Assembly: GCF_030908405.1 (NCBI RefSeq) | Contig: NZ_CP133089.1 | Coordinates: forward strand, 2,108,001-2,172,000 | Length of the DNA: 64,000 bases | Direction of reading: 5' to 3' | From: Aminobacterium sp. MB27-C1 | GTDB lineage: Bacteria > Synergistota > Synergistia > Synergistales > Aminobacteriaceae | In this document: in pieces, positions 51,962-55,029 of the stretch | Layout: each line of letters begins with the position of its first letter | Position numbering within the stretch: position 1 is the stretch's first letter | Position numbers and translations under genes: made by a program | The notes under the pieces: model-generated | What the model saw: the letters and a program-made list of their open reading frames with translations, nothing else | The model's database searches: none | Told to the model about the DNA's origin: nothing

Positions 51962-53095
51962 ATGAACTCTAAAAAATATACATTGGCGCGAATCCCTGGA
52001 GATGGAATAGGGCCTGAAGTTATTTATGAAGCATCAAAAGTTCTTGAAGCAGCAGCATCTAAATCGAATTTTGCCATTGAATGGATCGACTATCCCTTTG
52101 GGGCTGATTACTATCTTCGCACCAACGAGATACTTCCGGATTCCGCATTGAAAGAAATGGCTTCATGTGATGCTCTTTTCTTAGGTGCTGTGGGGGACCC
52201 GCGGGTAAAGCCGGGAATTCTCGAACGGGGTATTTTGCTTACACTTCGCTTCTATTTTGATCAATATGTCAATCTTCGCCCGGCAAAAAGATATCCTAAA
52301 GTTCCTCTTCCCATCCAAATAGAGGCAGGAAAAGAATTTAACACCTTAGTCGTTCGGGAAAATACTGAAGACTTTTATGTCGGGATTGGAGGAATAACAG
52401 AAACAGGATACATAAAAGAAAAACTTGAATTGCAACGAAATCTTTACTCATTTAAAGGTCAAATCTCGGGCAATTTCAATACAAAAACACGAGGGGCTTT
52501 CCAGATGGGGATAGCCTCTGAACCTGGCATTCGTCGAGTTACAACCTATGCGTGCAAAGAAGCAGAAAGAAGAGGAGACTCAAGCATAACTCTTGTTTCA
52601 AAATCAAATGCCCTTCCTCAAATGTACGGATTTTGGGAAGAAGTGACGAGAGATGAAGCTTCTATACACAATATGAAGGTATCGATAATGAATGTCGACG
52701 CCATGTGTTATCACCTTGTTCGAAACCCTTCTGCCTTTAACGTTATTGTTGCTCCCAATATGTTCGGAGATATAGTCAGCGACCTTCTGGCTGGGTTGTC
52801 AGGCGGCCTTGGCGTAGCCGCAGGTGCAGATATAGGAGACAGCCTCTCCATGTTCGAGCCTATTCATGGATCTGCCCCAGATATTGCCGGAACGGGAAAA
52901 GCCAACCCCATAGCGGCCCTTCTTTCTGGTGCTCTTATGCTTGCACATCTTGGAGAGAGAGAAGCTGCACATTCTGTTGAAAGAGCTGTCTGCTCTTTCT
53001 TAGAAAAAGCAGACTCGCGAAATCTCCCTATGGAATTTGGAGGGAATGGAACAACTTTTTCAGTAATAGAAGCTATATGTAAACAAATCGACTAA
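51962..53095 (+). CDS. leuB: 3-isopropylmalate dehydrogenase
   Basis: A 377-residue NAD-dependent decarboxylating dehydrogenase. RIPGDGIGPEV at the start, the catalytic VVRENTEDFYVGIGG region, NMFGDIVSDLLAGLSGGLG (metal-binding aspartates) and FEPIHGSAPDIAGTGKANP are intact. CAGGGGGGAA precedes ATG 51962. Some members with an F-x-x-x-N/T-E-D-F pattern act on tartrate or related hydroxy acids, but the leu context favours LeuB. Confidence 0.9.
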   Translation: MNSKKYTLARIPGDGIGPEVIYEASKVLEAAASKSNFAIEWIDYPFGADYYLRTNEILPDSALKEMASCDALFLGAVGDPRVKPGILERGILLTLRFYFDQYVNLRPAKRYPKVPLPIQIEAGKEFNTLVVRENTEDFYVGIGGITETGYIKEKLELQRNLYSFKGQISGNFNTKTRGAFQMGIASEPGIRRVTTYACKEAERRGDSSITLVSKSNALPQMYGFWEEVTRDEASIHNMKVSIMNVDAMCYHLVRNPSAFNVIVAPNMFGDIVSDLLAGLSGGLGVAAGADIGDSLSMFEPIHGSAPDIAGTGKANPIAALLSGALMLAHLGEREAAHSVERAVCSFLEKADSRNLPMEFGGNGTTFSVIEAICKQID

Positions 53096-53102
53096 AAATT
53101 TC

Positions 53103-53131
53103 TTGACAGATACGCTAGGCTTTCGTATAGT
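53103..53131 (+). promoter_or_regulatory. Promoter of the cysE-cysK operon
   Basis: TTGACA (53103-53108), exactly 17 bp, TATAGT (53126-53131), just after leuB. The expected transcription start is near 53138. Confidence 0.85.
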
Positions 53132-53156
53132 AGGCTATCTGAAGGGAGCGATACTA

Positions 53157-53207
53157 TTGGTTTTTAATGCTACTTTTAATTTTTGTTGTTGTGGGAGAAG
53201 AAACTAA
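53157..53207 (+). CDS. Cysteine leader peptide (three consecutive Cys codons)
   Basis: A 16-residue ORF, MVFNATFNFCCCGRRN, read from TTG 53157 to TAA 53205-53207. AGGGAG (53143-53148) lies 8 bp upstream. Codons 10-12 are TGT TGT TGT, directly before a hairpin, and the next genes make cysteine. This is the layout of an amino-acid leader peptide sensing charged tRNA-Cys. An overlapping frame from ATG 53167 has no ribosome site at a usable distance. Unlike the leader of leu, no cysteine-sensing transcriptional attenuator of this kind is familiar to me. Confidence 0.78.
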   Translation: MVFNATFNFCCCGRRN

Positions 53208-53344
53208 CTGTCTCCCCGTAGCGTAAAACATCAGGCTGCGGTGGGTATATAGCCCGTTGTAGCCAAAATAAAGCGCTCTCTAATAATAAGAATAGAAAAT
53301 CGAGATCAGCGGGCTTGTCAAATATGACAAGCCCGCTTTTTTTT
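53193..53344 (+). promoter_or_regulatory. Cysteine attenuator with alternative helices
   Basis: Default fold: GGGAGA (53193-53198) with TCTCCC (53211-53216); GGCTGCGGTGGG (53234-53245) with CCCGTTGTAGCC (53253-53264, some G-U pairs); then terminator AGCGGGCTTGTCA (53308-53320) with 53325-53337 and T8. Alternative fold if the ribosome stalls at the Cys codons: CCCCGTAGC (53214-53222) with GCTGCGGTGGG, freeing AGCCCGT (53251-53257) to pair with GCGGGCT of the terminator arm. The two folds are mutually exclusive. Confidence 0.75.
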
Positions 53345-53426
53345 AAGAAAGGAAGTGATGCCAATGGAATCTGATTGTCCATATGCCTGTTTTCTAAATC
53401 AGATTATTTACCGGAGGTATCAAAAA

Positions 53427-54101
53427 ATGAGAAAATTTGTTTCATATGTAATAAACGCCTGGGAGACTCTCAAATCCGATGTTTTAGCTGTTCCAGGAAA
53501 TGACCCTGCATTTAAGGGGGGCGTTTCAGGATGGCTTGAGGTTATTTTTTGCTATCCTGGCCTTCATGCTATCGTAGTTCATAGAATCATCCATTTTCTA
53601 CATGCAACCCTTCATATTCCATTTCTTCCACGACTGCTCAGTCATATTATGCGATGGCTCACAGGCATAGAAATTCATCCTGGAGCAAAAATAGGGAAAG
53701 GATTTTTTATTGACCATGGTATGGGGATTGTCATTGGGGAAACGGCTGAAGTGGGAAATAACGTAAGACTCTATCATGGCGTAACGTTAGGCGGAACAGG
53801 AAAAGAACAGGGGAAACGCCATCCAACAGTGGAAGACAATGTAATGATTGGAGCCAGAGCCTGCCTTTTAGGTAATATCACCGTTGGAGAAGGAGCAAAA
53901 ATAGGTGCGGGGGCCGTCGTCGTCAAAGATGTGAAAGCAGGTGCCACTGTAGTTGGAATCCCGGCATCTCCATTGGTTCGCCATACAGAAACGGATAGTA
54001 ATGATACTCCTCTTTCAATAAAGATATTGCTTGATCGAATCAACAGATTGGAAAAAGAACTTGATGCACTGAAAAATTACAGAAATGAGGAGGTTGCTTA
54101 A
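53427..54101 (+). CDS. cysE: Serine O-acetyltransferase
   Basis: About 224 residues. CysE makes O-acetylserine from serine and acetyl-CoA. An N-terminal helical part (FCYPGLHAIVVHRIIHF) is followed by hexapeptide repeats of a left-handed beta helix: GAKIGKGFFIDHGMGIVIGE (catalytic DHG-x-G-x-VIGE), YHGVTLGGTGKEQGKRHP and the C-terminal coil. ATG 53427 is preferred (GGAGGT 8 bp upstream). An in-frame ATG at 53364 with AAGGAAG would add about 21 residues. Transcription is controlled by the cysteine attenuator upstream. Confidence 0.94.
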   Translation: MRKFVSYVINAWETLKSDVLAVPGNDPAFKGGVSGWLEVIFCYPGLHAIVVHRIIHFLHATLHIPFLPRLLSHIMRWLTGIEIHPGAKIGKGFFIDHGMGIVIGETAEVGNNVRLYHGVTLGGTGKEQGKRHPTVEDNVMIGARACLLGNITVGEGAKIGAGAVVVKDVKAGATVVGIPASPLVRHTETDSNDTPLSIKILLDRINRLEKELDALKNYRNEEVA

Positions 54102-54102
54102 C

Positions 54103-55029
54103 ATGATTTATAAAACAGATCAAATTGCCTTGAGACAACTTATTGGACATACGCCTCTTTTTATCCTTCGTCCTGACCCTCAAGCTGCATCTATTGCTAT
54201 AAAATTAGAAGGTACAAATATCGGTGGCTCGGTAAAAGACAGAGCTGCCTGGGGAATGCTTCGTTATGCAGAAGAGAGAGGACTTCTTCATGACAATACG
54301 GTTATTGTCGAACCCACATCAGGTAACACAGGTATCGCCTTAGCCATGCTTGGCCAGGCCCTCGGCCTCAAAGTTATTTTGACAATGCCCGAATCCATGT
54401 CACAGGAACGTCGTTCTGTTTTGGCTGCCTATGGAGCAAAACTTCATCTCTCTCCTGCTTCAGAAGGGATGAAAGGTGCCATCGCCCTGGCCCAACGCAT
54501 TCTCACTGAGACTCCGGGAGCGTACATGCCCGACCAATTCAGTAATCCTGGGAATCCATGGGCTCACAGTGTCACGACTGCACCAGAGATTCTTTCGGAA
54601 ATGAAGGGAAAGTCGATTGCGGCCTTCGTCGCCGGCATCGGTTCGGGAGGAACTATTACCGGAACAGGAACGATACTAAAAGCTGTTTACCCTGCACTGC
54701 AAATTATCGGAGTTGAACCTTCAGGGAGTCCTATTCTCAGCGGAGGAAAGGCCGGGGCACATAAAATTCAGGGGATAGGGGCAGGATTTATTCCCAAAAC
54801 ACTCAAAAAAGAGATACTAACGCACGTAACGACAGTAGAAGACCAAGCAGCATTGGAAACAACTCGCTGGCTTGCTCATCATGTTGGGCTTTTCTGCGGA
54901 ATTTCTACAGGAGCAAACGTCTGGGCTGCCATTCAGACTGCGAAAAAATTCGGTCCTGACGATATAGTCGTTACAATTGCCTGTGACCGGGGTGACAAGT
55001 ATCTTAGCACTGAAGCATATAAAGCGTAA
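54103..55029 (+). CDS. cysK: Cysteine synthase (O-acetylserine sulfhydrylase)
   Basis: A 308-residue fold-type II PLP enzyme that makes cysteine from O-acetylserine and sulfide. The PLP lysine is in GGSVKDRAAW, the substrate loop in PTSGNTGIALAM, and the phosphate-binding loop GIGSGGTITGTG. GAGGAGG precedes ATG 54103, one base after cysE. Together they form a two-gene cysteine operon. Confidence 0.95.
   Translation: MIYKTDQIALRQLIGHTPLFILRPDPQAASIAIKLEGTNIGGSVKDRAAWGMLRYAEERGLLHDNTVIVEPTSGNTGIALAMLGQALGLKVILTMPESMSQERRSVLAAYGAKLHLSPASEGMKGAIALAQRILTETPGAYMPDQFSNPGNPWAHSVTTAPEILSEMKGKSIAAFVAGIGSGGTITGTGTILKAVYPALQIIGVEPSGSPILSGGKAGAHKIQGIGAGFIPKTLKKEILTHVTTVEDQAALETTRWLAHHVGLFCGISTGANVWAAIQTAKKFGPDDIVVTIACDRGDKYLSTEAYKA

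Follow-up and report, generated by a model that had tools for sequence, protein, structure and literature searches.

A putative his-type transcription attenuator sensing cysteinyl-tRNA upstream of cysE-cysK in Synergistota

The 64,000-nucleotide stretch of Aminobacterium sp. MB27-C1 DNA analyzed here (contig NZ_CP133089.1, positions 2,108,001 to 2,172,000; called the window, with coordinates counted from its first letter) contains cysE, coding for serine O-acetyltransferase (53427-54101; TIGR01172, 226.1 bits at a cut-off of 210.65), followed by cysK for cysteine synthase A (54085-55029, true start possibly further downstream; TIGR01139, 379.7 bits at a cut-off of 350.95), both on the plus strand like all features of the window described below. 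The region in front of these genes raises the question whether their transcription is controlled by a ribosome translating a short run of Cys codons. An earlier note on this DNA had proposed such a leader peptide and attenuator, and the elements on which this proposal was built were checked within the window and compared across the phylum.

The leu genes located upstream end at 53095, 8 nt before the -35 box of a sigma-70 type promoter (53103-53131), which consists of TTGACA (53103-53108) and TATAGT (53126-53131) separated by 17 nt. With 11 out of 12 consensus matches it bears out the consensus promoter proposed in the earlier note, and its hexamers are identical in the two congeners L002 and L003. 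A Shine-Dalgarno (SD) sequence, AAGGGAG (53142-53148), which has an SD-like counterpart at the equivalent site in both congeners, precedes a 16-codon ORF (53157-53207) encoding MVFNATFNFCCCGRRN. This ORF reads TTG GTT TTT AAT GCT ACT TTT AAT TTT TGT TGT TGT GGG AGA AGA AAC TAA, with the three consecutive Cys codons at 53184-53192. The corresponding leaders before cysE of the congeners are MVINAMNICCCGRTI, also with a TTG start (L002), and MSQHGVTLFCCCGRMI, with an ATG start (L003).

The leader RNA of the window is strongly folded (z = -5.67 in comparison to dinucleotide shuffles), and six segments, numbered 1 to 6, can be recognized 3′ of the Cys codons. Hairpin 1:2, the protector (53193-53216; 53193-53198 pairing with 53211-53216), had been described correctly except for its distance from the Cys codons, as the helix starts immediately after the last of these and not one base later. 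Hairpin 3:4 (53234-53264; 53234-53246/53252-53264), found in the minimum-energy fold, would sequester the antiterminator strand. The strong terminator claimed upstream of cysE is 5:6 with its U tract (53308-53344), which has a 13-bp stem (53308-53320/53325-53337) and is the sole terminator-like site in 53000-53450, where 0.2 would be expected from shuffled sequences. The alternative fold contains helix 2:3 (53214-53245; 53214-53222/53235-53245), which is present when segment 1 is masked, and the antiterminator helix 4:5 (53251-53315). The elements thus lie where they had been placed, but helix 4:5 turned out to be longer than described and comprises 9 bp (53251-53259/53307-53315).

A cysE profile search of 188 Synergistota genomes yielded 59 true orthologs (E < 1e-69), from which a group of distant paralogs stood apart. 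The upstream regions of all 59 orthologs and of 11 paralogs were examined and scanned for leader ORFs with a Cys run. A short ORF of this kind was present at the same position upstream of cysE in 56 of the 59 orthologs, the exceptions being two members of the outlying family f11 and genome G125, and at none of the 11 paralogs; nearly the whole order Synergistales carries the Cys leader and attenuator before cysE. The runs range from CC to CCCCC, except for two genomes belonging to a single family, which have C-I-C, and conservation of the 56 leader peptides is confined to the Cys run and its immediate neighbors. Recurrence before 56 of 59 orthologs implies that the element is more than a chance occurrence. 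A stricter scan, requiring CCC inside a short ORF within 400 nt upstream of cysE, gave 49/59 hits on the forward strand versus 1/59 on the reverse strand and 20/5900 in shuffled sequences, and no hit among 77 cysE genes from other phyla. Automatic detection placed an intrinsic terminator between leader and cysE in 54 of the 56 loci; in the remaining two, the terminator of L193 was identified by eye and L145 is without a proper U tract. Strong matches to covariance model R2 were confined to the sites upstream of cysE in these genomes. Weak matches to R1/R2 (L118, L121, G078, G079 and G175 C1:517315) were rejected, the matched stretches being without a Cys-run leader ORF.

The lone extra copy of the element (L243; G091 C4:169644-169715) consists of leader and attenuator before a truncated cysE (approximately 100 aa) in the vicinity of an integrase-like gene, and is a decaying duplicate. 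Near another cysE, a molybdenum cofactor riboswitch was detected (L186, 221-385, genome G168; RF01055, 57.2 bits). Outside the Synergistota, cysE of Thermosyntropha lipolytica (L087) has, close upstream, the very short ORF MGCSCLGDGCC, accompanied by an SD-like motif.

With regard to gene neighborhood, 30 loci were checked, and in 14 of them cysK lies directly 3′ of cysE. The gene upstream of the element differs in the congener L003 and is a translation factor gene in the more distant L119, which indicates that the element is part of the cysE locus rather than of the leu operon. These neighborhoods bear on two other readings of the locus. Since the leu operon ends so close to the -35 box, the terminator might be regarded as the end of that operon, with cysE being expressed by readthrough; however, it is located 3′ of the cysE promoter and leader, and it is kept before cysE in L003 and L119 despite their other upstream genes, so that this explanation is considered extremely improbable. 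The second reading is that a branched-chain amino acid is sensed, as a frame overlapping the leader, with an ATG at 53168 and located 3′ of the leu operon, reads MLLLIFVVVGEETNCLPVA and contains a run of Leu, Ile and Val codons (LLLIFVVV). This frame is interrupted in L002 (ATG CTA TGA) and L003 does not have it, which eliminates the branched-chain reading; the Cys frame, by contrast, has been retained by 56 genomes. Together with the upstream gene of L119, which is not a leu gene, this leaves sensing of a branched-chain amino acid with hardly any probability.

As the MAFFT core alignments (A2, A4) gave RNAalifold consensus structures whose register differed from family to family, the pairings were assessed by partner swaps, in which, for one genome per genus and 23 genera, the duplex energy of a leader's own segments was compared with that of segments exchanged between genera. 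Own partners performed better than swapped ones for 1:2 (z = -6.9), 2:3 (-3.1), 3:4 (-5.5), 4:5 (-5.8) and 5:6 (-14.3). For the same 23 genera, the pairings outside the model 1:5 (+0.2), 2:5 (-0.1), 1:4 (+0.2) and 3:6 (-0.7) gave no signal, and 4:6 gave a weak one (z = -2.5). When the data were divided into halves, 2:3 was the one helix with a weak signal in each of them (z about -1.7). The strands of 4:5 differ in sequence between families while their complementarity is kept, being AGCCCGUUG/CAGCGGGCU in the window, AGCCCGC/GCGGGCU in family f10 and AGCAGGU/GACCUGCU in family f8. Unmasked folds contain 1:2, 3:4 and 5:6. In most of the 23 leaders folded, masking of segment 1 in a transcript still without the terminator's 3′ arm gives 2:3 and 4:5. 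L149, L153 and L196 still prefer 3:4 despite the masked segment 1, so the switch in these leaders must rely on co-transcriptional order. Judged from these folds and swaps, the termination state is composed of 1:2, 3:4 and 5:6 and the predicted readthrough state of 2:3 and 4:5, the two sets being exclusive. The claim of two mutually exclusive folds is thereby upheld, in the form of a six-segment relay resembling the his attenuator. Likewise, the test set beforehand in the earlier note, conserved Cys codons and covarying helices in related Synergistota, was strongly passed, given the 56/59 cysE genes with a Cys run and the swaps over 23 genera. As a side observation, CATAG or a similar motif occurs in the 3:4 loop of most relatives (CATAG itself in 9 of 23 genera versus 1.0 expected), and it supplies the leader stop codon in several f8 leaders.

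The locus therefore combines a Cys-run leader ORF, an intrinsic terminator before the first gene, an exclusive antiterminator and target genes which make cysteine, features by which an attenuator of this class is recognized. We consider it very likely that the element is a his-type six-segment ribosome-mediated transcription attenuator, which senses Cys-tRNA(Cys) and controls cysE-cysK; the amino acid sensed would be the product of the controlled genes. From the parts and pairings, established by sequence and comparison, we infer how ribosome stalling, termination and the cysteine response would be connected. When Cys-tRNA is plentiful, the ribosome would pass the three Cys codons to the nearby stop and cover segments 1 and 2, whereupon 3:4 would pair, hide strand 4 and allow the terminator 5:6 to form upstream of cysE. 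The outcome would be the same when no translation takes place, as 1:2 and 3:4 would form. When Cys-tRNA is short, a ribosome stalled on the Cys codons would cover segment 1 only, leaving 2:3 free to pair and strand 4 available to capture strand 5 of the terminator, so that the polymerase would continue into cysE-cysK. A finishing ribosome that covers segment 2 and a stalled one that covers only segment 1 correspond to the geometry known from the his attenuator. Of the 56 leaders, 47 have a stop that ends 15-21 nt beyond the last Cys codon, among them that of the window (15 nt). In the other nine the stop is found 27-75 nt beyond the Cys run and in several cases close to segment 3; a ribosome at such a late stop should act differently, and a variant account is needed for these leaders.

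Instead of transcription, the leader might act on translation, as do the polycysteine uORFs of mycobacteria, with stalling or coupling altering the translation of cysE and the terminator being incidental. Such a mode of action is ascribed to the leaderless polycysteine short ORFs of mycobacteria in the accounts of Canestrari 2020 given elsewhere (PMC9031893, PMC13236596), and it would fit L145, which is without a U tract, as well as the presence of a second Cys-containing frame preceding cysE in the window. On the other hand, a U-tract terminator between leader and cysE is conserved (54/56), and strand 5 of the terminator itself takes part in the covariation of pairing 4:5. An action on translation is therefore considered unlikely compared to transcription attenuation. 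The second frame, MPMESDCPYAC..., is located between terminator and cysE (53358-53426), and its MPME.DC start is kept in L002 and L003. It has its own SD and shares the reading frame of cysE in the window and in L003, but not in L002; a similar frame, VESGCGCC, lies between terminator and cysE in two genomes of family f10 (L189, L191). The frame may extend CysE by a Cys-rich stretch or serve as a further Cys sensor, acting on translation.

In Firmicutes, cysE is controlled by a Cys-specific T-box, which senses the charging of Cys-tRNA and acts by transcription termination. A T-box or a metabolite riboswitch next to an incidental Cys ORF would thus have a precedent on this gene, the leader is strongly folded, and the motif GCGGTGG resembles part of a T-box. 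However, neither the window nor any of 20 cysE leaders gave an Rfam match, and the T-box covariance model found no match at gathering score in the same sequences. Moreover, the structure starts right after the Cys codons, and the segment sequences vary freely while their pairing is kept. This explanation appears very unlikely. What the proposed attenuator has in common with the T-box is the sensing of Cys-tRNA charging and the control of cysE by transcription termination; in the T-box, by contrast, the tRNA binds the RNA directly and no leader peptide is involved.

A promoter and start scan over the 56 leaders, in which transcription starts were inferred from the position relative to the -10 box, revealed two clearly separate versions of the element. 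In one half (28/56) the leader ATG lies just 6-7 nt past the -10 hexamer (9 nt in one case); this half comprises family f8 in full (26 members) and two genomes from the family to which the window belongs, examples being L160, L165 and L145. So short a distance from the -10 box (6-9 nt) predicts a leaderless mRNA. A longer 5′ leader is present in the remaining 28, among them the window; in those with an SD-like motif, the start probably lies about 25-56 nt 3′ of the -10 box. In this group, L196 is cut by a contig end. The window leader, with its SD and a start 25 nt past the -10 box, is not of the leaderless kind, whereas 28 of its relatives are so by position. In these 28 carriers, it is fairly probable that the attenuator is operated by ribosomes starting on leaderless mRNA, in which the AUG would occupy the first nucleotides of the transcript.

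The closest architectural counterpart is the his attenuator of E. coli and Salmonella (hisL), in which the pairings AB, CD and EF alternate with BC and DE (PMC10989985). Both systems have a leader peptide with a run of regulatory codons and six segments, which form either three hairpins ending in the terminator or two alternative helices. In contrast to the his attenuator, the Synergistota element would sense cysteine and control cysE-cysK, and half of its members are apparently leaderless; the likeness is one of architecture, and no sequence relation is claimed. As to cysteine itself, a transcriptional attenuator had been called unfamiliar in the earlier note, but uORFC-8-2, located before cysS of Rhodobacterales, was proposed in 2021 to be a ribosome-mediated transcription attenuator (PMC8632094). 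It shares with the present element a short ORF with tandem Cys codons, an intrinsic terminator and the proposed attenuation by Cys-tRNA, but it is found before cysS in alphaproteobacteria and has two Cys codons, which lie within the first of its two prominent stems (PMC8632094). Going by this published description, the element presented here is not a member of that group, as its Cys codons precede the first hairpin, the gene is cysE and the phylum is Synergistota.

Polycysteine leaders of actinobacteria were described in 2005, the mycobacterial regions being without conserved terminator hairpins (PMC1262725). The mycobacterial polycysteine ORFs are leaderless (PMC9031893) and, according to the citing articles, cysteine-responsive (Canestrari 2020, via PMC9031893, PMC13236596). 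Like the Synergistota leaders they place a run of Cys codons before genes of cysteine metabolism, and the leaderless arrangement of mycobacteria apparently recurs in 28 genomes here; they differ in the genes concerned, in having no conserved terminator hairpins and in being described as translational (PMC1262725; Canestrari 2020, the latter as represented in those articles).

In view of uORFC-8-2 and the actinobacterial precedents, a cysteine transcription attenuator is not new as an idea. A literature search, with most subscription papers outside its reach, returned no earlier his-type relay on a cysteine biosynthetic operon, no leaderless form of it and no attenuators in Synergistota. If the proposed mechanism applies, the operon for cysteine biosynthesis is governed by a his-type transcription attenuator responding to cysteine itself, and this across a phylum of anaerobes that ferment amino acids and have been little studied; on cysE, this attenuator would take the place of the T-box of Firmicutes. 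With 56 diverged copies, five testable pairings and two modes of initiation, the leaders constitute a natural set on the evolution of helix relays, which is also suited to asking whether transcription attenuation can be driven by leaderless leader peptides. If they do so here, a transcription attenuator would be run from a leaderless leader peptide, convergent with the leaderless polycysteine uORFs of mycobacteria, and a switch between SD-led and leaderless initiation would have occurred inside one family of regulatory elements.
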